Shown: positions 13,604 to 50,696 of the stretch, piece by piece
How positions within the stretch are numbered: the first letter of the stretch is position 1
Layout: every line of letters begins with the position of its first letter
Source of the DNA: Magnetococcales bacterium
GTDB lineage: Bacteria; Pseudomonadota; Magnetococcia; Magnetococcales; Magnetaquicoccaceae
Direction of reading: 5' to 3'
Assembly (NCBI GenBank): GCA_011089965.1
Contig: JAANAU010000009.1
Span: 1 to 64,000, forward strand
Length of the DNA: 64,000 bases
Program-made: the position numbers and the translations under genes
The notes under the pieces: model-generated
The model's input: the letters and a program-made list of their open reading frames with translations, nothing else
What the model was told of the DNA's origin: nothing
Databases searched by the model: none

Positions 13604-13786
13604 ATCAGGGGTCCAGGGGGGTTACCCCCCTAATGGGGTCCAGGGGCAAGAGCCACCCTGGGACTCTAATCTTTTAATCTTTCTAGACAAAAAATATTAT
13701 AAAATTATTTATTTTTAAAACATTGAAACATTAAAACATTAAAACCCTGGGGGATGAATCCCCCAGACCCCCTCTTTTTTTCAATG
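13604..13786. repeat. Composite palindromic repeat (copy 3)
   Basis: Between the start of pgi and the stop of nlpD. It contains the paired-palindrome block (CCAGGGGGGTTACCCCCCT and neighbours), two units of an octamer like CTTTTAAT, an AT-rich spacer with AAATATT, and the core palindrome CTGGGGGATGAATCCCCCAG followed by a C-run and T-run. The terminal inverted repeats seen in copies 5 and 9 are absent. It starts about 60 bp after the nlpD stop, with the usual polarity relative to that gene. Confidence 0.8.
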
Positions 13787-32321: not shown

Positions 32322-32532
32322 GGGAATGATCCGGTTCATGCAGAGGGTTCGGTTAATGAAAGAGTCAGCATACCATGTTTTGGCCATTGTCCCAACCCCA
32401 TTTGTGTACGGAACTCATTTTGCCTCCGCACCCCGGCGGCACCTGCTGATAGAGATCACAATTTTATGGGAAGTAAAGGACTGGAAAAAAAGAGATCCGC
32501 CCTTAACCAACTCTTAATGCAATTTTTACATG

Positions 32533-32590
32533 TTGCATTTTACAACAGAGCCGGTTATGAGATTATCAGGCAAATCTGATATTCTGATAA
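32533..32590 (+). promoter_or_regulatory. Candidate promoter and operator-like inverted repeat upstream of the SulP gene
   Basis: TTGCAT (32533-32538), a 17-bp spacer and TATGAG (32556-32561) form a moderate promoter. Directly after it lies an inverted repeat, TTATCAG (32563-32569) and CTGATAA (32584-32590), with a third ATCTGAT between them. This is where a repressor could block transcription of the SulP gene starting at 32614. Confidence 0.45.
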
Positions 32591-32613
32591 CCTTATCTTG
32601 CGAGAAGCGATCC

Positions 32614-34761
32614 ATGTCTGCCAAGGGCTTGCTGGTGCGTTTGTTTCCCTTTTTGAGCTGGTTTCCGGTCAACAATCTCACCATGCGGGACGATCTGATC
32701 GCAGGCATCACCGGTGCTTTGGTGCTGGTTCCCAAAGCCATGGCCTATGCGCAGTTGTCCGGATTGCCGGTCTATTTCGGGCTGTATACCGCGTTTGTCC
32801 CGGCCTTTCTGGGGGCGCTCTGGGGTTCAAGCCGCCAATTGGCCACAGGGCCTGTGGCTGTGGTCTCCTTGATGACTGCGGCTGCCGTCACACCTCTGGC
32901 CGTGCCCATGACCGAAGAGTACATCGGACTGGCGTTGTTGTTGACCCTTCTGGTGGGGGTGATCCAGTTTCTGTTGGGGGTGTTGCGACTGGGCACCATT
33001 GTCAATTTCGTCTCCCATCCGGTGATTCTGGGCTTCATGAATGCTGCTGCCATCATCATCGGCCTGTCCCAGTTCGACATGCTGCTCGGCATACCCAAGG
33101 GGCGCAGCGGGTCGTTTCTCAAGGACATCTGGGAGATGTTCACCTATCTGCCCCAGACCCATCTCCCCACCCTGCTGATGTCGCTTTTGGCATTGGTGTT
33201 GATGCTGGCATTCAAGAAGATCCCCAAACTGGCCAAGCCCAGTGTGTTGATTGTGGTGGCGATCACCGCCATCATCAGTCAGGTGGCCGGTTATGCCAAC
33301 AAAGGCGAGGCCATGCCGGATCAGATCATGACCCGCGCGGCGCACGATCTGGTGAGCGGCTATATTGCCAATGACGAGATGATCAACGACATGATGGTCA
33401 AATCGACCACCTTGTCCATGCAGATGAGGGCGGCCAGCAAGGAGAACGATGCCCGCACCGTGGCCCATCTCACCCATGAGATCAATCTCTTGGAACTGGA
33501 CATGCGCGGCATCAAAAAACAGGCCAATGGCCAGATGGCCCAGATCAACCGGCTCGCATTGCACCGTGCCAGAACGGTCGGAACGGCCAAATCCGCACTT
33601 TATGCCGCCGGGGAGGTTCCGGCAGGTGTGGAGACCGATGGTTACCTCTGGCGGGTCAAAAAGATTGACAAGGGCAAAGTGTATTTGAGCAGTGGTGGTG
33701 ATGTGGTCGGCACCATTCCTGCCGGTTTGCCTGCCTTCCGCATGCCTGAAATCAGTTGGGACGGGGTCATGTCCCTGATTTCCGCCGCCCTTGTGATCGC
33801 TCTGGTCGCCTTCATGGAGTCGATCTCCATGGCCAAGGCCATGGCCACCAAATCCAAGCAGCGCATCGATCCGAATCAGGAGTTGATCGGCCAGGGGGTG
33901 GCCAATATCGGTGGGGCATTCTTCCAGTCCTATCCGGCCTGCGGCTCCTTCACCGGTTCGGCCATCAATCTCCAGGCCGGGGCCAAGACCGGTTTTGCCA
34001 TGGTATTCAATGGCATTTTCGTGGCTGCCACCCTGCTGGTGCTCACCCCGTATCTGTATTATCTCCCCAAGGCCGTGCTGGCGGTCATCATTTTGTTTGC
34101 CGTGGTCAGCCTGATCACCCCGGCTGCCATCAAACATACCTGGCAGGCCAGCCACATGGATGGCGTGGTGGTCGGGATCACCTTCGTGGTGACACTCCTG
34201 GCTGCCCCGCACCTTGACAAGGGGATCATCGTCGGCGCCGGACTGGCGCTGTTTCTGTTCCTGTTTCACACCATGCGGCCCCGGGTGGCCATTCTCGGAC
34301 GGTTTGCCGACGGTTCGCTCCGGGATGTGGTGGTCAACAATCTCCCCACCTCGGATGTGGTCACCGTGATCCGGTTTGATGGTCGTCTCTATTTTGCCAA
34401 TGTCGCCTACTTTGAAGAGGCCGTACTGGAGGCCATCAACAAAAGACCGAATGTGCCGAATCTGTTGATCGTTGGCAATGGCATCAATGCCATCGACTCC
34501 TCGGGTGAAGAGGTGATTCACCATGTGGTCGAACGGCTTCAGGAGCACAAGATCCGTGTGGTCTTCTCGGGTCTCAAGAAGCAGGTGTTGGATGTGATGC
34601 GTGCCACCGGTCTGTTGGACAAGATTGGTGCCGATAATCTGTATCCGACCTCCGAAAGTGCCCTGGAGGCCATTTATGCCCGCTGCAATCAGATCCCGGA
34701 CAATGATCCGTTGCGTCCGTCCGGTCGCGGAGATGTGTATCATAATGGTGATGAACACTGA
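32614..34761 (+). CDS. SulP-family anion transporter with STAS domain and large loop insertion
   Basis: A 715-residue membrane transporter of the SulP/SLC26 family (sulfate, bicarbonate or other anions). Typical segments are DLIAGITGALVLVPKAMAYA, GSSRQLATGPVAVVSL, NFVSHPVILGFMNAAAI, FMESISMAKAMATK and AVIILFAVVSLI. A C-terminal STAS domain (about 570-690) ends the protein. Unusual is a stretch of about 140 residues (about 235-378) between two membrane segments, where most SulP proteins have 20-50. It is helical, then beta-rich (DGYLWRVKKIDKGKVYLSSG), and should lie outside the membrane. The nearby dab genes make bicarbonate a reasonable guess (BicA-like), but sulfate is equally possible. Confidence 0.9.
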   Translation: MSAKGLLVRLFPFLSWFPVNNLTMRDDLIAGITGALVLVPKAMAYAQLSGLPVYFGLYTAFVPAFLGALWGSSRQLATGPVAVVSLMTAAAVTPLAVPMTEEYIGLALLLTLLVGVIQFLLGVLRLGTIVNFVSHPVILGFMNAAAIIIGLSQFDMLLGIPKGRSGSFLKDIWEMFTYLPQTHLPTLLMSLLALVLMLAFKKIPKLAKPSVLIVVAITAIISQVAGYANKGEAMPDQIMTRAAHDLVSGYIANDEMINDMMVKSTTLSMQMRAASKENDARTVAHLTHEINLLELDMRGIKKQANGQMAQINRLALHRARTVGTAKSALYAAGEVPAGVETDGYLWRVKKIDKGKVYLSSGGDVVGTIPAGLPAFRMPEISWDGVMSLISAALVIALVAFMESISMAKAMATKSKQRIDPNQELIGQGVANIGGAFFQSYPACGSFTGSAINLQAGAKTGFAMVFNGIFVAATLLVLTPYLYYLPKAVLAVIILFAVVSLITPAAIKHTWQASHMDGVVVGITFVVTLLAAPHLDKGIIVGAGLALFLFLFHTMRPRVAILGRFADGSLRDVVVNNLPTSDVVTVIRFDGRLYFANVAYFEEAVLEAINKRPNVPNLLIVGNGINAIDSSGEEVIHHVVERLQEHKIRVVFSGLKKQVLDVMRATGLLDKIGADNLYPTSESALEAIYARCNQIPDNDPLRPSGRGDVYHNGDEH

Positions 34762-35175: not shown

Positions 35176-36618
35176 CTATGCAACGTCTCCACCCCGGGGA
35201 TCGGAATGGCCCAAACCATGAATGGCTTCCATCTGACCCCGATAAAGCTGTACCAGCCGCTCCTGGTTGGAGGCGTCCTGGCTGCCGGATTGAAGCACAT
35301 CCAGTTTGGCCAGGGTTGCAGGCAGGATGCGCATGGTTTCCGGATGTTCGGCAAACAGCGTCGCCAGTCCGACCCGGGTCAGTTCGTAGGCCAGAACATT
35401 GGTCTCTGCCACAACGGTTGCCGGATGGGGTTGACCGAGAAACAGTGCCCCCCGGCCAAAAGCTTCGGTGGCGATGAACCGTTCGTCCACGAAACCATTG
35501 CCATCCCGGGTGAGACGCTGTCGTTTGACCATCCCTTCGCCGATGAGAAACAGAGAGTGGCGACGCTCTCCGGCCTGCACGATGGATCCCTTGGCCCGAT
35601 AGTTCCGCGTGATCAACAGATCGGTGATGCGCTGACAGACTGCCTCCGGCAGTTCGTAGAAGAGACGACATTGCTTGACCAGGTTGAGACGGTCCAGGGA
35701 GCGATCCGCAATGCGCACGCGACTTTGGCTGTGCAACACCTCGGATTTGGCGTAGGAGACGTGAATCCCGGCATCCCGCAGGCGTTGCAGGATGCTCTTG
35801 ATGATCGCATGATCGGCTTTGGCCCCGTCGAGATAATCGGTGATGGTGTAGGCAATGGCATAAAGGACACCATCGCGATCCATCCGTTTGGCCAGAACCG
35901 ACGGGGGGGCGTCGAACTTGACCCCTTCGGCGGACAGGGTGGCAGCCAACAGAATGCGCTCGGCGCTTTCCACCGAGGTGTCGTAGTCGATCAGGATCTC
36001 CAGTCCGCGCTTGGCTGCGGGCGTTGGTTGATTCTCATTGCAGATCACCGCATTGGAAAGCATCAGGTTGGGGATCTGGATCAGTTCCTGTGCCCAGGTC
36101 TTCAGGGTGGTGGTGCGCCAGCCGATCTTGACCACCGTGCCCGTGAATTTGTCGTTGATCTTGACCTTGTCACCGATCTTGAATGTCTGTTCGGTATTGA
36201 TCAGAACACCGGTAAAGGCGGCCACGATCACATCGCGCAGCGCAATGCCGAGGATCATCATGCTCATGCCACCGGTGGCCACCAGAGTGGTCATGTCCTT
36301 GTTGAACACCGAGGACATGATCATCCCCACACCCACGATGATCACCAGTACCCCGGTGATATCTCCGATCAGCGTGGGGATGGGACGTCCGGTGCGCCGT
36401 TCCAGCACGCCGTGAATCAGGTTGATCTTGATGAAGCGTGCGGTCAGCAGCGTCAGCAGCAGATAGAGCGCAGCCAGCTCGAACTGTCCCCAGACCGGCA
36501 TGGCAATGCCGGTGGCAAACGCGAGAGGACGGTTCACCAACTCCCCGAGCGCCAATACACACACGAGAAAGAAAATTCCCAGGACAAGCCTGCCATAATT
36601 TTTCCAGAGATCTTGCAT
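35176..36618 (-). CDS. MscS-family channel with C-terminal cyclic-nucleotide-binding domain
   Basis: A 480-residue inner-membrane channel. About four helices precede the MscS pore-beta core (GIALRDVIVAAFTGVLI, then GDKVKINDKFTGTVVKIGWRTT and IPNLMLSNAVI). The C-terminal third (about 330-450) is a CNBD fold (KGSIVQAGERRHSLFLIGEGMV, FGRGALFLGQPHPATVVAETN). Such bCNG proteins are usually gated by ligand and not by tension, although Arg and Glu in the binding cassette do not match the cAMP consensus well. It follows the sensor gene at 36632 by 13 bp, so the two are probably in one operon. Confidence 0.88.
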   Translation of the reverse strand: MQDLWKNYGRLVLGIFFLVCVLALGELVNRPLAFATGIAMPVWGQFELAALYLLLTLLTARFIKINLIHGVLERRTGRPIPTLIGDITGVLVIIVGVGMIMSSVFNKDMTTLVATGGMSMMILGIALRDVIVAAFTGVLINTEQTFKIGDKVKINDKFTGTVVKIGWRTTTLKTWAQELIQIPNLMLSNAVICNENQPTPAAKRGLEILIDYDTSVESAERILLAATLSAEGVKFDAPPSVLAKRMDRDGVLYAIAYTITDYLDGAKADHAIIKSILQRLRDAGIHVSYAKSEVLHSQSRVRIADRSLDRLNLVKQCRLFYELPEAVCQRITDLLITRNYRAKGSIVQAGERRHSLFLIGEGMVKRQRLTRDGNGFVDERFIATEAFGRGALFLGQPHPATVVAETNVLAYELTRVGLATLFAEHPETMRILPATLAKLDVLQSGSQDASNQERLVQLYRGQMEAIHGLGHSDPRGGDVA

Positions 36619-36631
36619 GGCAATCGATTCC

Positions 36632-38491
36632 TCAGGAGGCTGTGGTCATGCGGATAACGAACCCGTCCGGGCCTTGGTCATCCCTGGACAGTTTGAGCGT
36701 GCCTCCAAGGAATTCGAGGATGGCCCGCGCCAGGGCCACATGGATCAGCGCCCCTTTGGCCTGGAATTCCACCGGAGGAGCGGCCTGCCGGGAAAGGAAC
36801 TGTTGCGCCTCGTCCATCATGGCCTCGGTGAGAAGCGTCAGGCTGCGATATCCGGATCCGGTCAGGGTGATCTCCAGCGATCCCTGCTCATGGGCGGATG
36901 CGGCGATACGGATGGTTCCCTGACCACCCGACTGGGTGGCGAAATCCAGCAGTTCGGTAAGTGCCTGGCCCAGCAGTTCCTGATCTCCACGTACGCCCGG
37001 AAGCGCATCGGGCAGGGTGCCTTCGATGGAAAGCGATTGAAGAGCGTGGCGCGTGGCGCGGTTCTCCTTCATGGCCTGCCGGATGGCCTTGACCGGATCG
37101 ACCTGGGTCAGAGGCCGTTTCACCAGTTGATGACGGAATTGGGCCAGCTGTTCATGGTCACCCACCAGTTGGCTCAACCGGATGGCCTCGGCAGTGGCGA
37201 AATCGATCCGCTCCCGAATGGCCTGCTGGTGTTCCGGACCTGCGGTTTCCCGGGGGGGCAAAGCGTCACGCAGCAGAATCTGTACGGCCTGAAGATGGCC
37301 GGCAATGGCCAGACTGGGTTCCTGGACAGCATGGATCAGTGTGCCGAAAAAGGTGCGCTTGACCGTATCGACCATGGCGAGTTTGGCGTTGGCTGCCGCC
37401 AGTTGTGCGGTTTTGGCCTCGATTTCCTGGCGTGAACCGAACAGGGCGTTGTGCAGGGAGTGTTGCAGGGCACGGAATTTCTGGTTGCCGATGATGCCAA
37501 GGAGCAGGAGTGCCACAAACAGAACTGCCCCCTTGATCGCGGCGGTCATGAGAATGTTCCGGGTCTCATCGTACAGATCGGCCACTGTCGTCACCACCAC
37601 GGTGGGCACGCCCGAGAAATTGGACAGTTGGAAACTGCGGACCAGCACCGGGCGGGAGCCGTTGCGGAGCAGTTCGGCTTCCGTCTTGCGGGGATTGAAG
37701 GAGAGTTGATGGATGATCTCCTTTACCGACTCTTTAGAATAAGAGAAGTAGCGATCCGACTGCACGATCTTGTCGTTTTCGGCATCCAGGGGGCGTTCGG
37801 CCTTTTCGGCCACGGCGTTGTCCAGGCCTATGGCAAACTCGACGCTGTTGGCCTTGGCCGCCTGGCGCAGCAGGCCATCGATGCCATCCCCCATCTCGGC
37901 AGCACCGATCACCTTGCGATTGGCATCGAACAGAGGGACCACGGCGCGCAGGGCGATGCTGCCGCCGCGTCCGGTCTCCATGCCCGATACCTCGATTCCC
38001 TTTTCCGTGGCAGCCACGAGGGTCTTGCGGAAAGCGGAGTTGTCGTTGCCGTAGGTGTTGACATCGTTGGCGCGCAAAAAGCCTTTGGCCGGAGGTGTGA
38101 AGAAATTCAACTGGTCGATGGCGAAATGCTTGTGCAACACGTTGGTGAAGAAGGGGACGATCCGTTCCAGCAGTGCGGGACGATCCCCCCGGGCAAACAT
38201 CTCCACCACTTCACGATCATGGGTCAGAACGTTGATTCCCAGACGCAAGGCCTCAAGACGGGTCTGGGCATTGTCTCGATAGTTTTTCTCGAACCGTTCC
38301 GAATTCTTTCGGAGGTTCGAGGTCAGAAGATCCATCTCCGAGGTGTAGGTGTTGATGCCATAGAAGCCGGCCACGAGGCTGGCCAGGATCAGAATGCCCG
38401 CCATGGCCAGCCAGGAGGTGCCGCTGCTCGGTTTCATGTCTTGGGAAGAAGGGTTGCCTGGTTGTTTTGAAGTCTGGTGTGGGGCGGTCAT
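36632..38491 (-). CDS. dCache-type membrane sensor with degenerate histidine-kinase domain
   Basis: A 619-residue membrane sensor. A helix near residues 28-45, a periplasmic double-Cache-like domain (QLNFFTPPAKGFLRANDVN, GGSIALRAVVPLFDANRKVIG) and a second helix near 320-340 lead to a coiled-coil. The following region looks like a worn HisKA box: GTLIHAVQEPSLAIAG keeps the His and the Pro but loses the Glu. The ATPase region lacks the N-box Asn and the DxGxG box. It is probably an inactive kinase that signals by binding. Coupling to the MscS/CNBD gene downstream suggests it controls that channel (inference). Confidence 0.8.
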   Translation of the reverse strand: MTAPHQTSKQPGNPSSQDMKPSSGTSWLAMAGILILASLVAGFYGINTYTSEMDLLTSNLRKNSERFEKNYRDNAQTRLEALRLGINVLTHDREVVEMFARGDRPALLERIVPFFTNVLHKHFAIDQLNFFTPPAKGFLRANDVNTYGNDNSAFRKTLVAATEKGIEVSGMETGRGGSIALRAVVPLFDANRKVIGAAEMGDGIDGLLRQAAKANSVEFAIGLDNAVAEKAERPLDAENDKIVQSDRYFSYSKESVKEIIHQLSFNPRKTEAELLRNGSRPVLVRSFQLSNFSGVPTVVVTTVADLYDETRNILMTAAIKGAVLFVALLLLGIIGNQKFRALQHSLHNALFGSRQEIEAKTAQLAAANAKLAMVDTVKRTFFGTLIHAVQEPSLAIAGHLQAVQILLRDALPPRETAGPEHQQAIRERIDFATAEAIRLSQLVGDHEQLAQFRHQLVKRPLTQVDPVKAIRQAMKENRATRHALQSLSIEGTLPDALPGVRGDQELLGQALTELLDFATQSGGQGTIRIAASAHEQGSLEITLTGSGYRSLTLLTEAMMDEAQQFLSRQAAPPVEFQAKGALIHVALARAILEFLGGTLKLSRDDQGPDGFVIRMTTAS

Positions 38492-38675
38492 GCGGTTGTG
38501 CTCCAATCGTGTTGCAAAATGGATAGCCGATGTGTTGTGCAGGGGAATGGTCCCTGCATTCCAATATAACAATTCACAGAAATTTAGGAAAGCGCTGCTG
38601 TGGTTGATCGATTGCCACGTCGGATCCGGGTGTTTTTCTCGGGTCTCAAGAAACGGAGGAGTGTGCCAACCACTG

Positions 38676-38704
38676 TTGACAATCCTGCATGATCCATTCA
38701 TAAC
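38676..38704 (+). promoter_or_regulatory. Candidate sigma-70 promoter of the dab cluster
   Basis: A perfect -35 TTGACA (38676-38681), a 17-bp spacer and CATAAC (38699-38704, four of six). It lies 70 bp before the first antiporter-like gene, in the 282-bp gap between divergent units. Confidence 0.55.
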
Positions 38705-38773: not shown

Positions 38774-40231
38774 ATGAAACCCCTGTTGACCCTGCTCGTT
38801 CTGCCGATCTGCGGTGCCCTGGTGATCGCGGTCGCATCCAGACGTTTCACCCACCCGCTGGCCATTGGCAGCGCCCTGATCACCCTTGGGACCGCTCTGT
38901 GGGTGACCGGACTGTTTTCTGCATCCCTGGTTGGACCCCAACTGCTGGAAAAGACCCTGTGGCGTCCCCAGTCGGGCAGCTCGTTTGCTTTGGGCGTGGA
39001 TGGCATCTCCTTGCCCATGGTGCTGCTGGCAGCTCTGCTGTCGCTCGTGGCCATTCTGGCTTCGGGCAGGGTGCAGAAGCGCGTTAAAATTTATTTCATT
39101 TCCCTGTTGCTCCTGGAGAGCGCCATGTTCGGAGTCTTCATGGCCTGGGACTGGTCGATCTTCTATATCTTTTGGGAATTGACCCTGCTGCCGCTCTTTT
39201 TTCTGATCAACGGCTTTGGCGGCAAAGAACGCAATCGGGCAGCACTCAACTTCGTGCTTTATACCATGGGTGGATCGGTTTTTTTATTGATTGGGCTGTT
39301 GCTGGCTTATGATGCATCGCAACAGCATTCTTTTTTTATGAGCGAGATGAGTGCCGGATTGCGTGGTCTGGGGCGCGAACAGCAGGTCGTCATCTTTTTG
39401 GGATTTCTGATCGGGTTTGGGGTCAAGATGCCGATCTTCCCTCTGCATGGCTGGTTGCCTCTGGCCCATGTGGAGGCCCCGAGTGCCGTGAGCATACTGT
39501 TGTCCGGGGTTTTGTTGAAAATGGGGTCATATGGCCTGGTGCGCATTGCCATGATGTTGCCGGATGCGGTTGTGGCCTTGCAGGGTGTGCTGGTTGCGTT
39601 GGCTGTGGTCAATCTGGTGCATGGGGGTGTCCTTGCCTGGCAGCAACGGGATCTGAAGCGGATGATCGCCTACTCCTCGGTCAGCCATATGGGGGTGGTG
39701 CTGCTGGGGATTGCGGCTCTCAACCAGGCGGGCATCACCGGAGCCATGTTGCAGATGGTTGCCCATGGCGTGACCGCTGCCGCCATGTTTCTGGCCATTG
39801 CTTTGCTCTACGAACGCACCCATACCCGGGATCTGCGCGATTATGGTTCTTTGACACGCATTGCGCCGCATTTTTCTTTTTTTGTGGCGGTGGCCTTCAT
39901 GGCTGCCGTGGGCGTGCCGGGTACGGCGGGTTTCATGGCCGAGTTGCATGTTCTGTATGCCGGATTGCAACGCTGGGGTTGGGTGGCACTGGTATTGACT
40001 CTGGCCATGCTGGTGAGTGCCGCCTATGCACTGCGTACCGTGGGGTGTCTGTGTACCGGTCCGGAGCAGCCCCGTCTGGGTGTGTTGACCCCGATGGCCC
40101 CTGTGGAGCGGGTTGCGGTTGGCCTGTTGACCGTGGCCATCGTGTTTCTCGGGCTGGTCCCTGGACCACTGCTTGCGCTGATGCGGGCCACCCTGGTTCA
40201 TTTTGGCGACCTGTTCGCAGGCCGTTTGTGA
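38774..40231 (+). CDS. NuoM-like antiporter subunit of the dab cluster (subunit 1)
   Basis: A 485-residue membrane protein with about 14 helices, of the complex I / Mrp antiporter family. Key residues for proton transfer are present: Glu in YIFWELTLLPLFF, Lys in FGVKMPIFPLHGWLP, Lys in VLLKMGSYGL, Lys in DLKRMIAYSSVSHMG and Glu in TAGFMAELH. It looks like a fully functional NuoM-type proton channel. No other nuo genes are nearby. It lies 10 bp before dabA, so the energy it provides is probably used for inorganic carbon uptake. Confidence 0.9.
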   Translation: MKPLLTLLVLPICGALVIAVASRRFTHPLAIGSALITLGTALWVTGLFSASLVGPQLLEKTLWRPQSGSSFALGVDGISLPMVLLAALLSLVAILASGRVQKRVKIYFISLLLLESAMFGVFMAWDWSIFYIFWELTLLPLFFLINGFGGKERNRAALNFVLYTMGGSVFLLIGLLLAYDASQQHSFFMSEMSAGLRGLGREQQVVIFLGFLIGFGVKMPIFPLHGWLPLAHVEAPSAVSILLSGVLLKMGSYGLVRIAMMLPDAVVALQGVLVALAVVNLVHGGVLAWQQRDLKRMIAYSSVSHMGVVLLGIAALNQAGITGAMLQMVAHGVTAAAMFLAIALLYERTHTRDLRDYGSLTRIAPHFSFFVAVAFMAAVGVPGTAGFMAELHVLYAGLQRWGWVALVLTLAMLVSAAYALRTVGCLCTGPEQPRLGVLTPMAPVERVAVGLLTVAIVFLGLVPGPLLALMRATLVHFGDLFAGRL

Positions 40232-40241
40232 GACCTGGACC

Positions 40242-43200
40242 ATGCATGAGACCCCCTCATCAGGCCGAATGGCCCGCATCCGGGAGACGCTCCACCATCT
40301 GGAGCATCTGTTGCCCGGACAGGCGGCCATCACCGATTTCATCCATCACAATACCCTGCACGGATTCCAGCATCTGCCGTTCCCACGTGCCCTGGCCGAG
40401 GCGCGGCGCTGGACGGGCATTTATGGATATCTCCCGCCTGAACGGTTTCGGGCTTTGTATGCGCAAGGCCGTATCACCCGGGCCGATCTGGAGTGGGTCA
40501 TCCGGCAGGATCCGGAGCTGCGGGCCGCTGAACCCCTTGGTCCGACCCATCGCCTGGAGGTGATCTGCCTGCAACTGCTGCACGGGATCGCCCCCATCTC
40601 CCCCCGTCAGCTCTCCTGGCAGATTGAAGAGCAGGGGGCGTTGGAACGGTTTCAGTCCGGCGTCTCCCCTGAGGCTGTGCAGGCTGTGCTTCAGGGCAAA
40701 ACGCAGACGGCGGTGCTGGAAGATCTTTGGCGGGCATGTCTGGATGGTTTTGGTCTGAGTCATGGCCACTGGTTTTGCGAGGAGCGGCTTGATCACGCCA
40801 GCAATGAGGCGTTTCTGGATGAGGATCAGGTGAGTCTTTCCCAACAGGCCATCATTGCCGCCATTCGTGCCGCAGCCGGGCGTTCCTGGTCCGAGTTGTC
40901 CGGTCAGGTCGGGGTCACGCTCACCTTGAGCGGTCTTTTGCGCGCCGTGACCGGCATGGATCTGTCCGAAGCCATCCGGCCCTATCTGGTGCGCCTGTTG
41001 GGTGCGTTTCTGGATCTTGGGGTGGCGAGCTGGACATTGCCGGAGCGCGAGGCCGGTTTGTATCAGACCTGGAAAAAGGGTGCGACCACAGAGCTGGCCC
41101 AGGCCTTGGACGAGATGCCCGACTGGTCGGAGTGGTTGGCCGATCTGCCGGAGACGGCGGAAGAGGCCCTTGCCGATGGTCTGTTGCGGTTGGGTCTGCC
41201 TGAGGAGCGGTGGGCCGGATATCTGCAACGGTTGGCTTTGGAGTTGCCGGGTTGGGCTGGCATGGTCTGTTGGCGCAGCCAACGGCCCGGATATGGCGGC
41301 AGTACGGCGCGGGTGGCGTTGGCCGATTATCTGGCCGTGCGGTTGATCCTGGAGCGTTGGCAGGCGGCGCGATTGTGCCGCTCCATCTGGTTGATCGAAC
41401 CCACTTTGGACACTTTGGGTTGGTATTTCCATCGTTATCGTGGTGAATTCCTGGTACGGCGCGCCCTGTTTGCCGGTGAGTTGGACGACTCTTTGACCAC
41501 CCGTGCCACCCGGTTGTTGCATCGTTCTCCCACGGATCCGGATCTGGCTCCCGAGTGGCGCAAACTGGCCTTGGCGCTCTGGAAACAGACAGGAACTCCG
41601 GAAACCGTCCGGGTGAGTGCCAGCAGGCAGGCTTGGCCATTGTTTCTGTTGGCCCAGCATCTCGGTTGGAGTGCTGCGCAACTGCGCTCCTGGAACGAGA
41701 CGAACCTGGCGGCACAGCTTCTGGAACAGGTGCAGGCCATGGATGACGCAAAGGCCGGATTGCTCTGGTTGTGTGCCTATGAGCGTCACTACCGGGAAGA
41801 GATCTTTGCCGCCTTGCGGGCCAATCGGGGGAGGGGGCGTTGGTTGCGGCGCGACCAGGGGGTGCCATCGGCTCAGGTGCTTTTTTGCATGGATGACCGG
41901 GAGGAGGGGATCCGGCGTCATCTTGAGGAACAGGATCCCACCATTGAAACCCTTGGGGCTGCCGGATTTTTTGGTGTGCCGGTCCATTGGCAGGGGTTGG
42001 ATGATGTCACCACGACGGCATTGTGTCCGGTTGTCGTGGTTCCGTCCCACAAGGTGCAAGAGTTGCCGTTGGAGGCTGGAGATGGCGTCTGGCATCGGCA
42101 TCGTTTCTTGCGCCGGGTGACTTCGGGGTGGAAACGGCTGTTGACCCGTGAGAGTCATCGCGGTTTTCTGGTGCCGACTTTGGTATCTTTTTTGTTGGCG
42201 CCGTGGGTGTGGTTGGAGTTGGTGGTGCGCGGCTGGTGGCCGGTGTTGTGGGCCAGGTGGATGGACAAGCTGGCATTGTGGTTGGATCCGCCTGTGGTCA
42301 CCCGGATGACCCGGAGTGCGTTGGATCCGACAGCCGTGGCCACGCCAGTTGCACCCCGTTTGGGGTTCACCCTGGATGAGCAGGCCGGGCGGGTGGCGGG
42401 TTTGTTGCGTACCATGGGTTTGACCCATGGGTTTGCCTCTGTGGTGGCGATTCTCGGTCACGGGGGCAGCAGTGTGAACAATCCCCATTTGGCTGCCTAT
42501 GATTGCGGGGCGTGCAGCGGTCGTCATGGCGGACCCAATGCCCGTCTGTTCGCTGCCATGGCCAATGATCCCGACGTGCGGTTGCGGTTGGCTCAGCAGG
42601 GGATCTCCATTCCGGAGCATTGTTGGTTTGTGGGGGGGGAGCACAATACCGGCAACGAACGGATTGCCTGGTTTGATCTGGATCTCATGCCGTCCGTGGC
42701 ACGGGTGGCCATGGAGCGGTTGATGCGCTCTTTGGAAGAGGCCCGGTTGGGATCGGCCCATGAGCGTGCCCGGCGTTTGGCCTCGGCGCCGCACGGAGCG
42801 GATCGGCAGCGTGCCTTGGATCATATGGGCGGGCGGGCGGTGGACATCAGTCAGGCCAGACCGGAGTTGGGTCATGCCACCAATGCCGTGGCGGTGATCG
42901 GGCGTCGTGCTGTGACGCAGGGTGTTTTTTTTGATCGGCGCATGTTTTTGATCTCTTATGATCCCACCCAGGATCCGGAGGGGTTGATTGTGGAGTCGAT
43001 TTTGCTGGCTGCCGGACCGGTGGGTGCGGGCATCAGTTTGGAGTATTATTTTTCCAGTGTGGACAATGAGCGGTTTGGTTGTGGCACCAAGGTGGCGCAT
43101 AATCTGACCGGATTGTTTGGGGTGATGGACGGGACGGCTTCGGATTTGCGCACCGGTTTGCCCCGTCAGATGGTGGAGATTCACGAGCCGATGCGGTTGT

Positions 43201-43460
43201 TGGTGATTGTCGAGCAGCGTCCGGAGATTTTGACGATCATTTATCAGCGTCAGGAGGCGTTGCAAGAGTTGGTTGGCAATGGTTGGGTTGTGTTGGCGGC
43301 ATTGGATCCGGAGAGTGGTGTGGTGCATGAGTTCTCTCCCCGGTCGGGTTGGAGTGTCTGGTCCGAAGGGGATCGCTCTCCGCTTCCGGAGGTGGCCCGT
43401 TCGGCGGATTGGTACAGGGGTCATTCCGGGCCATTGGCTCCGGCATTGATTGCCATCTGA
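40242..43460 (+). CDS. dabA: DabA, inorganic-carbon uptake protein (DUF2309/UPF0753)
   Basis: A 1072-residue peripheral membrane protein distantly related to beta-carbonic anhydrases. In Halothiobacillus, DabA binds zinc and, with the membrane protein DabB, performs energy-driven hydration of CO2 to bicarbonate. The zinc ligands are conserved with the right spacing: Cys549 and Asp551 in FCMDDREEG, His740 in GHGGSSVNNPH and Cys755 in YDCGACSGR. It is a long DabA, over 200 residues more than the short type. It lies after a NuoM-like gene and before three more antiporter-like genes, separated from the latter by a repeat. Confidence 0.95.
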   Translation: MHETPSSGRMARIRETLHHLEHLLPGQAAITDFIHHNTLHGFQHLPFPRALAEARRWTGIYGYLPPERFRALYAQGRITRADLEWVIRQDPELRAAEPLGPTHRLEVICLQLLHGIAPISPRQLSWQIEEQGALERFQSGVSPEAVQAVLQGKTQTAVLEDLWRACLDGFGLSHGHWFCEERLDHASNEAFLDEDQVSLSQQAIIAAIRAAAGRSWSELSGQVGVTLTLSGLLRAVTGMDLSEAIRPYLVRLLGAFLDLGVASWTLPEREAGLYQTWKKGATTELAQALDEMPDWSEWLADLPETAEEALADGLLRLGLPEERWAGYLQRLALELPGWAGMVCWRSQRPGYGGSTARVALADYLAVRLILERWQAARLCRSIWLIEPTLDTLGWYFHRYRGEFLVRRALFAGELDDSLTTRATRLLHRSPTDPDLAPEWRKLALALWKQTGTPETVRVSASRQAWPLFLLAQHLGWSAAQLRSWNETNLAAQLLEQVQAMDDAKAGLLWLCAYERHYREEIFAALRANRGRGRWLRRDQGVPSAQVLFCMDDREEGIRRHLEEQDPTIETLGAAGFFGVPVHWQGLDDVTTTALCPVVVVPSHKVQELPLEAGDGVWHRHRFLRRVTSGWKRLLTRESHRGFLVPTLVSFLLAPWVWLELVVRGWWPVLWARWMDKLALWLDPPVVTRMTRSALDPTAVATPVAPRLGFTLDEQAGRVAGLLRTMGLTHGFASVVAILGHGGSSVNNPHLAAYDCGACSGRHGGPNARLFAAMANDPDVRLRLAQQGISIPEHCWFVGGEHNTGNERIAWFDLDLMPSVARVAMERLMRSLEEARLGSAHERARRLASAPHGADRQRALDHMGGRAVDISQARPELGHATNAVAVIGRRAVTQGVFFDRRMFLISYDPTQDPEGLIVESILLAAGPVGAGISLEYYFSSVDNERFGCGTKVAHNLTGLFGVMDGTASDLRTGLPRQMVEIHEPMRLLVIVEQRPEILTIIYQRQEALQELVGNGWVVLAALDPESGVVHEFSPRSGWSVWSEGDRSPLPEVARSADWYRGHSGPLAPALIAI

Positions 43461-43470
43461 GCGGACAAAG

Positions 43471-43660
43471 GATTGAAAAAAAAGAGGGGGTCTGGGGGAT
43501 TCATTCCCCAGGGTTTTAATGTTTTAATGCTTTAAAAAATAAAAAAATAAAAAAATAAAATATTAATATTTTTGTTTAAAAGATTAAAAGATTAAAAGAT
43601 AAAGTCCCAAGGGCTTCGCCCCTGGACCCCACCAGGGGCCATTGGCCCCTGGACCCCGAT
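43471..43660. repeat. Composite palindromic repeat inside the dab cluster (copy 8)
   Basis: Starts 11 bp after the dabA stop with GATTGAAAAAAAAG, a slightly imperfect core palindrome (CTGGGGGATTCATTCCCCAG), an AT-rich part with AAATATTAATATTT, three to four AAAAGATT units, and the CCAGGGGCCATTGGCCCCTGG-type palindrome. Terminal inverted repeats are absent. It fills the gap before the DabB-like gene. Confidence 0.85.
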
Positions 43661-43686
43661 GATGGTTCAACTCCTGGGAGTCGAAA

Positions 43687-45234
43687 ATGTCTTGGCTGAA
43701 TGTGTGGCCCCTGATGATCCCGTTGATGCCAGGATTGGCAGCCCTGTGGATTGGTGGTGTGATGGGTGCCCGGAACCAATCCGAACGCCATACGGCCTGG
43801 ATCGCCCTGACAAGCATGATGATCTCGCTGCTGGGAATCGTGACCCTGGATCTGTGGTCAATATGGCAAGGTCTGCCAGGCCACCGGATCTGGCAAACCT
43901 GGTGGGAAAGCGGTGGCACCCGCATCACCATCAGCTGGCTGCTGGACCTGCCAGCCCTGGTCATGACCACTCTGGTGGCACTGGGATGCCTGACGGCAGG
44001 TCGGTTCGGCATAAATTACATGCACCGGGAACCCGGCTTCCACCGCTTTTTTGCCACCTTGTGCCTCTTTGCCAGCGGCATGTTCTGGATTGCCCTGGCC
44101 GGCAATGCGCTCCTGACCTTTGTGGGATGGGAGCTGGCCGGAGTGGCCTCGTTCCTGCTGATCTCCTATGCCCGCGAACGTACCACCGCTGCTGAAAATG
44201 CCACCCGCGCCCTGATGACCAATCGGTTCGGAGATGCCGGAATGCTGTTTTCCCTGGCCATGACCCTGGCTGCGGTGGGCAGCGTCGAATGGCCCCGCAT
44301 CCTGAATGCCGATTTCCCTCCCGGTGCCCCACCCATTCCCATCATACTGCTGGGCTTCCTGGTGGCAGCCCTGGCCAAATCCGCCCAAATCCCGTTTTTT
44401 GCCTGGATCGCCCGCGCCCTGGAAGGCCCAACCCCGTCAAGCGCCCTGTTCTATGGCTCCCTTCTGGCCCATGCCGGAGTGTTCCTGGTGATTCGCCTGG
44501 AACCTCTGTTGTGGCACTCCCCCATGTGGATGACCCTTTTGATGCTGCTCGGCCTGACCACCGCCATCCTGGCCCCGGCCATCGGACGGGTGCAGAGCGA
44601 TGTCAAAAGCGCATTGATCTTCTCCACTCAAGCCCAGATCGGATGGATGTTCTTTGCCTGCGGGGCCGGCCTGTTTGACCTGGCCCTGGTCCATATGACC
44701 ATGCACGCCTCCTGGAGGTTTTATCAATTCCTGTTGGCCCCTTCGTACCTGCAACAGGGGGGCATGACTGCCCGACAGGTGCCAGGATGGCTGGCGCGCA
44801 GCCGCTCTCTCTACCACTTTGCCCTGCAACGCGGCTGGTTCGACAACTTGACCGATGCGTTGATCACACGTCCCACCCTGGCACTGGCCCAGGACGCACG
44901 CCTGTTCGAGGAGGTGGTGGTCAACCGCATCGCCGGTCGCCCCACACATGAAATCATGCTCGCCCAACGGGCGGAATGGGATGACCCCTTGATCCAACCC
45001 CTCCCGGACGCACACGCGATCACACAAGGACGCGGACTCTTTGGACGACTGCTGGAGAAAATGGCGCACATCCTCTCCTGGTTTGAAGAACGGTTGGTGC
45101 TCAACAGCAGTGGAGATGGCCTGGTGCAGGGGTTGCGCTTCCTGGGGGACTATCTGCGCCACATCGATCTGTCACTCGGCAAGCCACGCTATTTGATCTT
45201 GATGATCGTATTGACCTTTTTGGTGATTCTTTAG
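43687..45234 (+). CDS. dabB: DabB-like / NuoL-like antiporter subunit (subunit 2)
   Basis: A 515-residue membrane protein of the NuoL/DabB type. It keeps Glu in FVGWELAGVASF, Lys in ALAKSAQIPFFAWIARALEGPTP-like context and Lys in DVKSALIFSTQAQIGW. HMTMHASWRFYQFLL has Arg where NuoL has Lys, in a segment where DabB proteins also vary. It has no long lateral C-terminal helix of the NuoL kind. This is the most likely direct partner of DabA, which in known systems needs one such protein. The order here (dabA first) is the reverse of the usual dabB-dabA. The next gene starts 4 bp downstream. Confidence 0.85.
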   Translation: MSWLNVWPLMIPLMPGLAALWIGGVMGARNQSERHTAWIALTSMMISLLGIVTLDLWSIWQGLPGHRIWQTWWESGGTRITISWLLDLPALVMTTLVALGCLTAGRFGINYMHREPGFHRFFATLCLFASGMFWIALAGNALLTFVGWELAGVASFLLISYARERTTAAENATRALMTNRFGDAGMLFSLAMTLAAVGSVEWPRILNADFPPGAPPIPIILLGFLVAALAKSAQIPFFAWIARALEGPTPSSALFYGSLLAHAGVFLVIRLEPLLWHSPMWMTLLMLLGLTTAILAPAIGRVQSDVKSALIFSTQAQIGWMFFACGAGLFDLALVHMTMHASWRFYQFLLAPSYLQQGGMTARQVPGWLARSRSLYHFALQRGWFDNLTDALITRPTLALAQDARLFEEVVVNRIAGRPTHEIMLAQRAEWDDPLIQPLPDAHAITQGRGLFGRLLEKMAHILSWFEERLVLNSSGDGLVQGLRFLGDYLRHIDLSLGKPRYLILMIVLTFLVIL

Positions 45235-45238
45235 ATCC

Positions 45239-46744
45239 ATGACCTCGAACCCGTTCCTGCTTGGATGGATGCAACTGCTGCCGGTGATCGGTGCCCTCGG
45301 GTTGCTGTTCATACGCAATCAAAGAGTCGGCTGGTGGATTGCATTGGGATGCACGGTCGGCGAACTGCTTTTGGCCTGGCAACTGCTGAACCTCTTTGAT
45401 CCTGAGGCAATCACCTGGCAATGGCATACCCGCCTGCCCGTGACCCGCGCGCTGGTGCAACTCTCGGGTGCAGATGGCATGACGGTTCTGTTCGTGCTGC
45501 TGACCAGCCTGTTGGCACTGCTGGTGGTGCTGTACGGCGGACTGGTGCGCCGTTATGACCAACTGCCACGTTTTTTCTCCGTGGTGCTGGCGTGCGAGGC
45601 TGCCCTGATCGGCCAGTTCGCCGCCCTGGATCTGCTCTGGTTCATCCTGATGGCCGCCATCCAAACGGTCTGTATCAGTCATCTCTTTGCCAACTGGTCC
45701 CTCTCTTCGGACGAACGCACGGCCATGGTGCGCTACAACCAGTTCATGGGCACCAGCCTGCTGCTGCTGCTGGCCGCAGCCCTGATGCTCGGCTGGAACC
45801 ATGCCCTCCTGCACGATGGTCGCTGGAGCTTTGAATGGCCGCTCCTGGTTGAAGACTACCGCTCCAACTATCTTCAAACCGTGATTTTCTATCTTCTTTT
45901 CTATGGATTGGCCATCCGTCTGCCCCTCTTTCCCCTGCATGGCTGGCTCCCCCAGGTGATGGAACACGGAACCGTGGCCTCGGCCATGGTGCTGCTTCTG
46001 GGGGTGAAAACCGGTATCTATGGAATTGTCCGGTTTGTGCTTCCCTTGTTTCCCGATGCCGTATGGCAATGGCACAACCATGTGATCGTGTTTGCCGTGG
46101 TCGGGATCTTCTACAGCGCCCTTCTGGCCCTGGTCCAAACCAATCTGCGCAAGCTTCTGGCCTATGCGGTGATCAGCCATACCGGCATTCTGGTGATCGG
46201 ACTCTTCAGCCTGCACCCGCATGCCTTTCAGGGCAGCCTGATGCTGACCGCTTCGTTTGGCCTGGCCATCTCCACGTTGATGCTCACCGCCGGCATGATC
46301 CATCTGCGTACCCGTGGATTGGCGCTGGAACAACTGGGCGGACTCATTGTTCCCCTGCCGGTGGTCGGGGTCGCCTTTCTGGTGGCCTCCCTGTCGGTCA
46401 TGGGCATGCCCGGCACCCCTGGCTTTGATGCCGTTCACCTGTTGCTGGAGGCGGCCATCGACCGTTTCGGTGCCCTGGTGACCCTGCTGGCGGCCATTGG
46501 CAACCTGACAGCCTCGGCCTGTCTGCTGTGGGCCTTTCAACGCGCCTTTCTGGCCGCACCACTCAAACCCGTCCAGCCGGTCAGCTCTCCAGCCCGCTCC
46601 ACCTGGTTGGAACAGGGACTGGCCGGGGTGCTGATCGTGGTGCAACTGGTGCTGGGCTTTCATGCCGATCCCTGGCTCGATCTGGTCAAACAAACCTCGA
46701 TCCGACTCGCGGCGCCTTACATGGAATCCAGAGACCAGCCATGA
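45239..46744 (+). CDS. Degenerate NuoM/NuoN-like antiporter subunit (subunit 3)
   Basis: A 501-residue, about 14-helix protein of the same family, recognisable by RLPLFPLHGWLPQVMEHGT and NLRKLLAYAVISHTG. Key charged residues are changed: where relatives have Glu in FWELT this protein has Ala (FILMAAIQT), the Lys of GVKxP is Arg (AIRLP), and the Glu of the twelfth-helix motif is missing (GTPGFDAVH). The Lys in LLGVKTGIYG remains. It may no longer pump protons and may serve as a structural subunit. The following gene overlaps its stop by 4 bp. Confidence 0.85.
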   Translation: MTSNPFLLGWMQLLPVIGALGLLFIRNQRVGWWIALGCTVGELLLAWQLLNLFDPEAITWQWHTRLPVTRALVQLSGADGMTVLFVLLTSLLALLVVLYGGLVRRYDQLPRFFSVVLACEAALIGQFAALDLLWFILMAAIQTVCISHLFANWSLSSDERTAMVRYNQFMGTSLLLLLAAALMLGWNHALLHDGRWSFEWPLLVEDYRSNYLQTVIFYLLFYGLAIRLPLFPLHGWLPQVMEHGTVASAMVLLLGVKTGIYGIVRFVLPLFPDAVWQWHNHVIVFAVVGIFYSALLALVQTNLRKLLAYAVISHTGILVIGLFSLHPHAFQGSLMLTASFGLAISTLMLTAGMIHLRTRGLALEQLGGLIVPLPVVGVAFLVASLSVMGMPGTPGFDAVHLLLEAAIDRFGALVTLLAAIGNLTASACLLWAFQRAFLAAPLKPVQPVSSPARSTWLEQGLAGVLIVVQLVLGFHADPWLDLVKQTSIRLAAPYMESRDQP

Positions 46745-48210
46745 TCGCCTCCACACCCCCGCACCTGCTTTCGTTGGTGATTGCCTGGCCCCTGGTCGGC
46801 GCCCTGCTGGCCTGGCTGGTCCCGACCGGTCAACAGGCGCGCCGCGTGGCCCTGATCTGGGTCGCAACCGAGTTGGTGCTGGCCGTGATCGTCATGCTGA
46901 ACGTGGATTTTTCCCGGGCCGGTTTCCAACTCCTGGAACGCCATGCCTGGATCCCTTCGTTGGGCATCGAGTATCGGTTGGGCGTGGACGGCGTCTCTGC
47001 CCTGTTCCTGCCCGCCACGGCTCTGCTGTTTCTGGCGGCTGTGGTCGCAAGCTGGCATCTGGCGCAACGGGTCATGCCCCGTCTCTACTTCGCCTTGCTG
47101 CTGTTTCTGGAAGGGGTGACCCTCGGGATCTTCTGCGCTGCGGATCTGGTGCTGTTTTTTCTGTTCTGGGAGCTGACCCTGATTCCACTCCATTTCCTGA
47201 TTGCCTTGTGGGGCATCGGACCCAACCGGCGTCATGCTGCCGTCAAATATACCCTGTTCATGCTGGCAGGGGGAGCCGCCCTGTTGATCGCCTTCCTGCT
47301 CGTGGCCCAGGCCCATCCCGGACCGCAGTCGTTTGATCTGCTGCGTCTGCTCCACGAACCCCTGGCCATCGGACACCAGTGGCCGGTCTTCTTTTTGTTG
47401 CTGTTTGGCTTTGGGGTCAAGATCCCTCTGGTCCCCCTCCATGTCTGGCTGCCGATTGTCGCCATGGAAGGTCCGGTGGCCGTGACCGCCATTCTGACCG
47501 GCATCAAACTGGGAGCCTATGGCCTGATCCGCCTGCTTCTGCCCCTCACCCCGGATGTGGCACAGCAGATGTACTGGCTGCTGGCAGGTCTGGGGGTGGT
47601 CTCCATGGTGTATGGCGCCTTGTCCGCCCTGGCACAGACCAATCTGCGCCGTCTGTTCGCCTTCTCCAGCATCAGTCACATGGGCATGGTGGTGTTGGGC
47701 CTGGCCACCTTCACCATCCAGGGTGTGCAGGGGGCCGTCTTTTATTTATTGAACATGGTGCTGGTCTCTGGCGGATTGTTTCTGTCCATGGGCATGATCC
47801 ATCACCGGCTCGGCTCTACGGATCTGCTTCATCTGGGAGGGCTGGCGCGCCCCATGCCATTGTTGTCTGGATTTTTTCTGCTGTTTGGACTGGCCAGTAT
47901 CGGCCTGCCGCTCACCTCCGGTTTTCCCGGAGAGTTTCTGCTTTTGACCAGCGTCTTGCACCATCACATCGGCTCCGGATTGGCCGCCCTCGGCAGCGTG
48001 ATCCTGGGTGCCGGTTATCTGATCGGGTGTTATCGTCACGCCTTTCTGGGTCCGCTCAATCCTGCGATCCCTGCCGATCTTCCCCCTCTCCTGTTCCGGG
48101 AACAGGCCCTCCTGATCGGCATGGCCGTGTTGATCCTGGTGATCGGCTGGTTCCCGAACCTGATACTGGAGAGCATCCGTCCGGCAGCGGAAGTGTGGCT
48201 GGAACGGTGA
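46741..48210 (+). CDS. NuoM-like antiporter subunit (subunit 4)
   Basis: A 489-residue membrane protein of the NuoM type. Proton-path residues are retained: Glu in FLFWELTLIPLHF, Lys in FGVKIPLVPLHVWLP, Lys in LTGIKLGAYGLI and Glu in GFPGEFLLL; the Lys of NLRRLFAFSSISHMG is Arg. The start overlaps the preceding gene as ATGA, which fixes it. It is the last gene of the dab cluster. A convergent chemoreceptor gene ends 141 bp later; that gap shows no clear terminator. Confidence 0.88.
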   Translation: MIASTPPHLLSLVIAWPLVGALLAWLVPTGQQARRVALIWVATELVLAVIVMLNVDFSRAGFQLLERHAWIPSLGIEYRLGVDGVSALFLPATALLFLAAVVASWHLAQRVMPRLYFALLLFLEGVTLGIFCAADLVLFFLFWELTLIPLHFLIALWGIGPNRRHAAVKYTLFMLAGGAALLIAFLLVAQAHPGPQSFDLLRLLHEPLAIGHQWPVFFLLLFGFGVKIPLVPLHVWLPIVAMEGPVAVTAILTGIKLGAYGLIRLLLPLTPDVAQQMYWLLAGLGVVSMVYGALSALAQTNLRRLFAFSSISHMGMVVLGLATFTIQGVQGAVFYLLNMVLVSGGLFLSMGMIHHRLGSTDLLHLGGLARPMPLLSGFFLLFGLASIGLPLTSGFPGEFLLLTSVLHHHIGSGLAALGSVILGAGYLIGCYRHAFLGPLNPAIPADLPPLLFREQALLIGMAVLILVIGWFPNLILESIRPAAEVWLER

Positions 48211-48351: not shown

Positions 48352-50649
48352 TTACCGCACCCCCTTTTGATTGAGGAACCGGGCATAGTGTTGGTCTGAC
48401 TTGAGGATGTGATGGCTGAGCCACTGTTTGAGGAAACCCAACAGCTCAAAGGTGGCGGCCAGATCCCGGCTTTGGCTGCGGGCGGCCAGTTCATGGAGTT
48501 GGGCGATCAGCTTCTGGTGTTTCTGTTTGTGCTGGTCGGATTCGGGATAGCCGTGCTGGGTGAACAACTGCTCCTCTTTGGCAAAATGGTGCACCGTGTA
48601 GTCGAGCAGACGGGGCAGCACCTGGTCCACGGCTTCGGCCACCTGTCCGGATTTGGTCAGGGCATGGACCGAGTTGACCAGATCCACCAGCACGCGATGC
48701 TGCTCATCCATGGACTGCACCTGAATTTTCAAGGCATCGCTCCATGGAAACAACACCCCATCTCGTGTGTCTGCTTCAACCTGAAAGTAGGTGATCACCC
48801 CTTGCAGCTTGTTGGATTGTTCGGCAAAGCTGTCCGCTGTCACGGCCAGTTGGTCCGCAGCCTCGGCATTGCATTGAATGACGCCGTTCAACTCATGCAA
48901 CGCCTGATTGACCTGCTGGATCCCCTGGCTCTGTTCCCGGGAGCTGTGGGCGATTTCGCTCACCATGTTGGCGGTTCTGGCAATGGTCGGGACCAAAGCG
49001 CGCAACACCTTGGTCGCATCTTCGGCCACGGCCACGCTCGATGAGGAGATGCGATTGATCTCCGCAGCAGCCGTTTGGCTCCGTTCTGCCAGTTTGCGCA
49101 CTTCGGAGGCAACCACGGCAAACCCTTTGCCATGCTCACCCGCGCGTGCAGCCTCAATGGCGGCATTGAGCGCCAACAGATTGGTCTGACGGGCGATCTC
49201 TTCGATGACCGAGATCTTTTCGGCAATCTCCTTCATGGCGCTCGATGCGCGCAGGACAATATCCGCCCCCTGTTGGGCCGACTGTGCGGCTTCGCGGGCA
49301 ATCTCTTCGGTTTGCCGGGCAGTCTCGACGTTTCTGCCAATGGTGGCATTCATCTGTTCCATGGAGGCCGAGGTCTCTTCGATGGCGGCAGCCTGCTGGG
49401 TGGCCCCCTGGGAGAGCTGGAGCGAGCTGTCGCTGATGGCTTCGCTTTCGCGGACCACCTGATGGCCGATGGTGGTGATGGTCTGGACGGTCGAGCGCAA
49501 ATTGGTGACCATCATGGCCACGGATCCCATCACCCCATGCAGGGTGCGGCTGGTGTCAAAGGCCAGGGTCAGATCACCCCGTGCCACCTGATCGGTGATG
49601 GCCATCACCTCCAGAGGCTCGCCACCAAGCTGTTGCAGGATGATGCGGGCAAAAAGCAGACTCAAGACCAGGGTGAAGAGCAGCACCAGGAGGGTGGCCA
49701 CACCATAGATCACCAGATCCTGTTGCGCGTGGGTCAACAAGGTTTGAGCTTCGTGCAGAATGGTGGCAGCGATCTGCTCTTCCACCTCTTTCAACAGGTT
49801 GATCTTGGTGGTGATGGCCTCGAACCACTGGGCGGGTGCGATCCCGAACTGTCCGGTCTCCTCCTTCTCGAAAGCAATGCCCCGCATCCGTTCCACATCG
49901 GTCACGGCGCCTTTTTTCATCTGTTCCTGGTATTGCTGGACGATCCTGTCGTCAGCCAGGGCGGTGAAGAGTCCCAGATGTGCATTCTGTTCGGCCACCA
50001 GTCCGCTGAACCGGGTGAAATCCCCAGGTGCAAATCGCTCCTGGGCAAAGGTGCGGTTCAGGATGGCCCGTTCCAAACCGGCACGCTCTTTGGCCAGCAG
50101 GAAATTGACATAGGCGCTGGTCAACGTGGACATGCGGGCATTGACTGCCTGGCGTGAGATGAGGGTGATCACCTGCAACAGCCGGGCATTGGTCTGGGTA
50201 AACAGGGGGACAGCGTTCCTGGCTTCGGCCTGCAAGGCATCGACCTGTTTGCGCATCTCCGGCAGTGCGCTGACGAGACGCATTCCTTCTGCCAATCCCA
50301 GAAAGATCGGTGCCAGAACAGGATCATGGGGTGTGGTCGGATCCGTGAACTTCTGAAGCAACCGTTGTGTGCGTTCCACCTCTGCACGCTGTTTGTGCAG
50401 ATCGTTTTGGAACTGCTGGCCCTGGCTGCCAACAAACCCGGCGGTCAGGCCGCGCTCTTTCTGGAGTTCATGGACCAAAGCACTGATGGCCGTGGCCATG
50501 TCTGCCAACGCCATCATGGTGGTGGCACTCTGATGGATGGCCCACTTGGTGTTGACCATCTGCTGGCCAAACCAGATCACCGCCACCAGCGGGGTCAACA
50601 GCATGAGCAGGAATTTTTTGTGCAGCGCCAGTTGACGCAAACGGTTCAT
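48352..50649 (-). CDS. Methyl-accepting chemotaxis protein with NIT sensor and C-terminal hemerythrin
   Basis: A 765-residue chemoreceptor. A helix near residues 12-30, a long helical periplasmic NIT-type domain ([28 protein letters not shown]) and a second helix near 312-335 are followed by HAMP and the signalling hairpin [21 protein letters not shown]. The last 130 residues form a bacteriohemerythrin: [35 protein letters not shown] and [11 protein letters not shown] supply the His/Glu/Asp ligands of a di-iron oxygen site. NIT domains are thought to sense nitrate/nitrite, so one receptor could read both oxygen and nitrogen oxides. The ATG 50649 is chosen over a TTG nine bases upstream. Confidence 0.92.
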
Positions 50650-50696
50650 GAACCACAAGCTCCGCCATGGAGAGGGATGAATGGAAGGGTTTTTCC

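Follow-up and report, generated by a model that had tools for sequence, protein, structure and literature searches.

A long-form DabA gene forms a conserved five-gene set with four complex-I-like antiporter genes in Magnetococcia and other Pseudomonadota

DAB2, or DAC, of Halothiobacillus neapolitanus (DabA2-DabB2; PDB 9rd0) is an energy-consuming system that accumulates bicarbonate, and two-gene DABs are described as working alone (PMC13144422). In the two-subunit structure, coupling is explained by a glutamate in the membrane finger of DabA (Glu444), whose loss abolishes activity, while Leu658 is invoked for the lack of spontaneous CO2 hydration by DAB2; the partner DabB2 has lost the glutamate of an ion pair (Ile151), a loss that the authors tie to a more open state (PMC13144422). 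A preliminary description of the locus studied here took known DAB systems to consist of DabA and one DabB, which is too narrow, as DAB1 has a third small protein; the 2026 structure paper, in the text on which we draw, treats only single-, two- and three-subunit DACs (PMC13144422). The same two protein families constitute MpsAB of Staphylococcus aureus, which supplies dissolved inorganic carbon and has been proposed to be a sodium/bicarbonate symporter, and additional NuoM-like subunits are not described for it in the accounts on which we draw. A functional analogy is offered by the cyanobacterial NDH-1MS, in which a CO2-hydrating protein is combined with a complex-I-like membrane arm bearing several antiporter subunits (PMC13144422, introduction, for part of this account).

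Neighborhoods with further antiporter genes were reported in 2017, when clade C of the COGNAT study was described as having ybcC/dabA upstream of nuoL, alongside additional genes for NuoM (COG1008) and SulP (COG0659); a larger number of membrane subunits was proposed to go with a larger number of ions (PMC5700660). The function of DabA was then unknown and its reaction was assumed to be exergonic, and the main text of that paper is without residue, fusion, co-occurrence or subunit-clade analyses of the NuoM genes. The locus presented here matches this neighborhood type (dabA upstream of a nuoL homolog, COG1008, COG0659), with the SulP gene, which adjoins S1 upstream in relatives, located 4 kb upstream. 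The gene neighborhood is therefore not new, both it and the idea of more subunits for more ions having been published before the energy-coupled role of DabA was known. No open paper treating the five-gene form as a DAB was found, subscription papers and the COGNAT supplement lying outside the scope of the search.

In this work, we analyzed a window of 64,000 nucleotides (the whole stretch of DNA under study) from a Magnetococcales bacterium, in which positions 38774-48210 hold the five-gene set S1-dabA-S2-S3-S4, entirely on the plus strand (Table 1). Coordinates, strand and Pfam assignments confirm the reported same-strand arrangement around dabA, and the tight spacing holds as well: 10 bp separate S1 from dabA and 4 bp separate S2 from S3, S3 and S4 overlap by 4 bp, and the single exception, the 226 bp between dabA and S2, contains a repeat. 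This short palindromic repeat, CCTGGACCCCACCAGGGG, is found in 8 copies in the window vs 0.03 expected (positions 13627, 17892, 19209, 35018, 35045, 43621, 57226 and 63979), one of them being the copy between dabA and S2. An Rfam search of the window gave no matches, and a promoter scan remained near background.

Table 1. Features of the five-gene locus and its surroundings (window coordinates).
Feature	Position	Strand	Basis or remark
SulP-family anion transporter	32530..34761	+	Pfam/NCBIfam, neighborhoods, COG0659 in PMC5700660
MscS-cNMP	35176-36618		upstream neighbor
Sensor kinase	36632-38701		upstream neighbor of S1
S1 (NuoM-like antiporter subunit, 485 aa)	38774..40231	+	Pfam PF00361, E 1e-68
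dabA, long form, 1072 aa, ATG 40242	40242..43460	+	Pfam PF10070, E 6e-235
Spacer, 226 bp, AT-rich repeats and palindromic genome repeat	43461..43686	.	motif count, fold z -4.5
S2 (DabB/NuoL-like docking subunit (putative), 515 aa)	43687..45234	+	tree, hydropathy, AlphaFold, hhalign, Foldseek
S3 (divergent NuoM-like subunit, 501 aa)	45239..46744	+	tree, residue counts, fusion
S4 (NuoM-like antiporter subunit, 489 aa)	46741..48210	+	Pfam, tree, residue counts
MCP (chemotaxis receptor)	48352-50658	other	directly downstream of S4

The source genome (3.66 Mb, 98.9% complete) carries a single DabA, at the five-gene set, and seven PF00361 proteins, namely the four at this locus plus NuoL, NuoM and NuoN. 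The latter three belong to a nuo operon located on a different contig together with NADH- and quinone-module families; at the five-gene locus neither module of respiratory complex I was identified, and no nuo genes are among the identified neighbors, in agreement with the preliminary description. RuBisCO is absent from the genome, which led us to reject a RuBisCO-linked role of the set, while an ATP-citrate-lyase candidate is present; two beta-carbonic anhydrases are also encoded, so the five-gene system would not be the sole bicarbonate source. Regarding the neighboring genes, the SulP transporter, possibly a bicarbonate uptake protein, has a transport domain whose two halves are separated by an insert of ~130 residues, and the chemotaxis receptor combines a NIT (nitrate/nitrite-sensing) domain with a C-terminal hemerythrin domain.

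DabA is a member of PF10070 (782.6 bits), and its residue numbers hold for the start ATG 40242. The zinc ligands Cys549/Asp551/His740/Cys755 had been described as intact, correctly so: by alignment to PDB 9rd0_A they correspond, together with Arg553, to C351/D353/H524/C539 and R355 of DAB2, and ligands and Asp-Arg dyad (C549/D551/R553/H740/C755) are kept in at least 114 of 115 relatives, the 115-120 long DabA sequences compared including about 11 duplicates. Protein family, zinc ligands, dyad and the position of the DabA membrane hairpin are thus shared with DAB2 (PMC13144422), as is a NuoL-derived partner. The set differs from DAB2 in having three extra antiporter subunits, in the location of dabA upstream of its partner, in the length of DabA, and in several residues of this protein. 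The DAB2 Leu658 position is occupied by His (His878 here) in 115/115 long DabA sequences and by Leu in 14/14 classic ones, and this invariant His suggests that the catalytic site may differ from that of DAB2; at the position of DAB2 Ser356, long DabA has Glu554. Moreover, Glu444, held by an FxFVE-type motif in two-gene DabA, has no counterpart in the long form, whose membrane finger showed no conserved acidic residue among 120 sequences. This loss could mean altered coupling or none.

In a plasmid search, no match covered 80% of the DabA query and no close S3 was found; one plasmid record retrieved with DabA carries a DabB-small protein-DabA operon. In the Nitrobacter hamburgensis plasmid NC_007959.1 (263298-276103), two near-identical tandem DabB-small protein-DabA-PII operons adjoin carboxysome genes. 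Additionally, one five-gene-type DabA (locus L085, 9932-13339) has the active-site Asp and Arg replaced (CMEVQ vs CMDDR), adjoins Mrp-like genes, and is possibly changed or inactive.

The putative partner, S2, is a shortened NuoL/DabB relative. DAB2-type DabB has 15 transmembrane (TM) helices, whereas hydropathy and an AlphaFold model (pLDDT 77) give S2 TM1-11, no TM12-15, and then low-confidence helices with one last TM; the alignment of S2 to NuoL stops at about residue 355-377. At its tail, S2 weakly resembles the part of NuoL that directly follows TM15, at the start of the NuoL lateral helix (hhalign E 0.0014, probability 17%), and Foldseek alignments of S2 extend over the entire E. coli NuoL. 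The ion pairs of NuoL (Glu144-Arg175, Asp178-Lys229) are kept in 33/33 sequences; in this S2 is unlike DabB2, with its Ile151, but Glu144 is also retained in the partner of a two-gene sister group and hence does not distinguish systems with extra subunits. Against the NdhF3 model TIGR01960, S2 scores 123.5 bits (cut-off 588.7); the five-gene set departs from NDH-1MS in that its S2 is not NdhF3-type, its hydrating protein is a different one, and it comprises no electron-input or quinone module.

S1, S3 and S4 score best as NuoM in NCBIfam. The complete NuoM residue set is found only in S1 and S4 among the four subunits, with TM5 Glu, TM7 Lys, TM8 Lys and TM12 Glu (E144/K234/K265/E407) kept in 32/32 sequences, whereas S3, the most divergent of the set, has lost the glutamates of TM5 and TM12 in 32/32 sequences and carries Arg for the TM7 Lys. 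The preliminary description had envisaged a multi-channel complex; a conserved functional set withstands this analysis and four equivalent channels do not, S3 being degenerate, S2 being without the TM12-15 half-channel, and Glu444, the replacement for that half-channel in DAB2, being absent as well.

In a tree of 84 antiporter-subunit proteins, with NuoM sampled from four genomes, S1, S2, S3 and S4 form one clade each (support 100/98 or better). S2 falls with the DabBs of two-gene systems (99/94) and not within NuoL, S1 has NuoM as its sister group (96/86), and S3 and S4 are sisters (99/94). The MrpA/MrpD and hydrogenase-4/Hyf subunits are placed apart from all four clades, and S1, S3 and S4 lie outside NuoM, NuoN and Mrp/Hyf, so that phylogeny, proposed earlier as a check, does not locate them within complex I or Mrp operons. 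Two Mrp-like proteins of locus L085, labelled S1 and S4 by BLAST, fall with Mrp. The DabAs of five-gene loci also constitute a single clade, whose sister group recurs in the S2 tree, in keeping with the addition of S1, S3 and S4 to a two-gene ancestor. The sister group is a smaller set of DabA-first systems (L083, 3310-7880; L118, 18781-23244; L122, 3151-7631; L186, 65-5716), likely an intermediate, in which His again takes the place of Leu658 and the partner retains Glu144.

Within the class Magnetococcia, dabA is present in 34 of 48 genomes and S3, counted above 280 bits, in 34/34 genomes with dabA and 0/14 without it; nearly all of the 34 display the order S1-DabA-S2-S3-S4. Among the best 80 relatives in a scan of named genomes, all are recognizably Pseudomonadota and most share both the five genes and their order, which extends across gamma- and betaproteobacteria; carriers include Nitrosomonas, Nitrosospira, Nitrotoga, Methylobacter marinus, Methylomonas, Sulfurimicrobium and Thiodiazotropha. 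Altogether, all five genes were found at 88 loci, about 11 of which are duplicate contigs, leaving at least 77 distinct ones; many of the remaining loci are truncated at a contig end. A DabA surrounded by four Proton_antipo_M genes is far beyond chance.

The set also persists where dabA has become unlinked, which was observed in three lineages, all four antiporter genes being retained in each. Two Magnetococcia genomes from a single family have dabA in an unrelated neighborhood and S1-S4-S2-S3 together elsewhere; in one Methylococcales genome, dabA, S1 and S2-S3-S4 occupy three separate places; and in a further genome (G379), dabA stands alone and S1-S2-S3-S4 are clustered on another contig. 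Retention of the whole set after linkage was broken points to a shared function, and the five genes are supported as a real, conserved functional set. In a Thiothrix metagenome-assembled genome (L120, 8448-23126), the order S1-DabA-S2-DabA'-S2'-S3-S4 places two distinct DabA/S2 pairs with one shared S1, S3 and S4, and in the tree DabA' joins the DabA that stands unlinked in G379.

Further, S2 and S3 are fused in the Competibacter order as a single ORF of ~1045 aa, joining the S2 C-terminus to the S3 N-terminus, with matches at 67-84% identity to the query in 26 of 40 genomes of the order, about 19 of them near full length. Both termini would be periplasmic by complex I topology, which makes the fusion topologically consistent, and at the sequence level it supports a physical pairing of S2 with S3. 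An AlphaFold model of the natural fusion, built from S3 rows and three fusions because S2 and S3 rows misalign together, was poor in its S2 half (mean pLDDT 64) and yields no interface.

With the integration of these findings, the five-gene form is a well-supported variant of the DAB family, and DabA and the four antiporter-like proteins probably form an enlarged, membrane-energy-driven machine converting CO2 to bicarbonate. The reading that we favor, with some confidence, is a vectorial carbonic anhydrase of the DAB type, enlarged by further subunits, with S2 as the dock for DabA and with inward passage of protons through the intact S1 and S4. For this, we infer a physical complex in which DabA would be a cytoplasmic zinc enzyme acting on CO2, and S2 the subunit for docking and coupling; the space of the lost S2 helices would be taken up by the DabA hairpin, and the NuoL-like S2 tail would run along the neighboring S3, a degenerate NuoM-like spacer adjoining S2. 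Since the S2 helices and the DabA glutamate of the DAB2 route are both gone, protons would no longer use that route; as S1 and S4 keep complete proton paths, we propose that inward flow through these putative proton modules drives DabA, its energy being passed through S3 and S2. The absence of RuBisCO and the ATP-citrate-lyase candidate suggest that the bicarbonate would feed the reverse TCA cycle and the bicarbonate-using carboxylations of a probable autotroph of that type.

A stronger form of this explanation, raised already in the preliminary description, holds that several protons are used per CO2 hydrated, with S1, S4 and possibly S2 conducting, which would permit bicarbonate accumulation at low proton-motive force. 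Standard reasoning on complex I assigns one proton to each antiporter module, and this counts in favor of the stronger form, as do the two complete NuoM residue sets and the NuoL-like ion-pair network of S2. Subunit number was likewise tied to ion number in PMC5700660. However, stoichiometry is unreadable from sequence, S3 is degenerate, and S1 and S4 could be structural or gating, so we regard the use of several protons as possible and hold it tentatively. About equally tentative is the proposal of a distinct class of vectorial carbonic anhydrase, between DAB2 and the complex I arm, in which energy from S1 and S4 would travel laterally via S3 and S2 to DabA at more than one proton per CO2, the missing half-channel of the truncated-NuoL S2 being made good by the neighboring NuoM-like pumps.

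It is unlikely, in our view, that DabA and S2 are instead an ordinary two-subunit DAB, with S1, S3 and S4 as a separate proton/cation antiporter encoded in the same operon, e.g., for the pH balance of bicarbonate accumulation. The autonomy of two-gene DABs (PMC13144422) would fit such an arrangement, as would the position of S2 within the DabB clade and a sister group whose S2-like DabB mostly occurs without adjoining S1, S3 or S4. Conversely, the S2-S3 fusion runs through the entire Competibacter order, the antiporter genes co-occur strictly with dabA and are kept as a set when it moves, and a DabA without Glu444 with an S2 without TM12-15 would be a two-subunit DAB missing the known periplasmic half-channel.

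Very improbable is the reverse direction, in which an exergonic DabA reaction would drive ion export through the antiporter subunits, as proposed in the COGNAT study before the function of DabA was known (PMC5700660). Complex-I modules are pumps, and the His in place of DAB2 Leu658, with a catalytic site that may differ, would be compatible with it, but the zinc site is conserved, little energy is available from bicarbonate dehydration, and DAB2 works in the energy-consuming direction (PMC13144422). Finally, the best NCBIfam scores of S1, S3 and S4 as NuoM might suggest that they are strays or duplicates from complex I or Mrp that lie by chance beside dabA; this reading is rejected on the tree, with NuoM from four genomes, and is extremely improbable given their own clades, a complex I encoded elsewhere in the genome, and the same set in distant taxa.

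The enlarged DAB-type machine favored here concerns a large, widespread sister group of the two-subunit systems, found in nitrifiers, methanotrophs, sulfur oxidizers and magnetotactic bacteria, which is without Glu444 and the matching partner helices and has three more complex-I-like subunits. It constitutes a natural test of how proton flow and CO2 hydration are coupled, and of sideways energy transfer by antiporter modules without electron transfer, a central question for complex I; if true, the lateral-coupling proposal would represent long-range coupling of the complex I type without any redox reaction. Taken together, these genes are predicted to serve bicarbonate supply in organisms of importance to nitrification and to methane oxidation.
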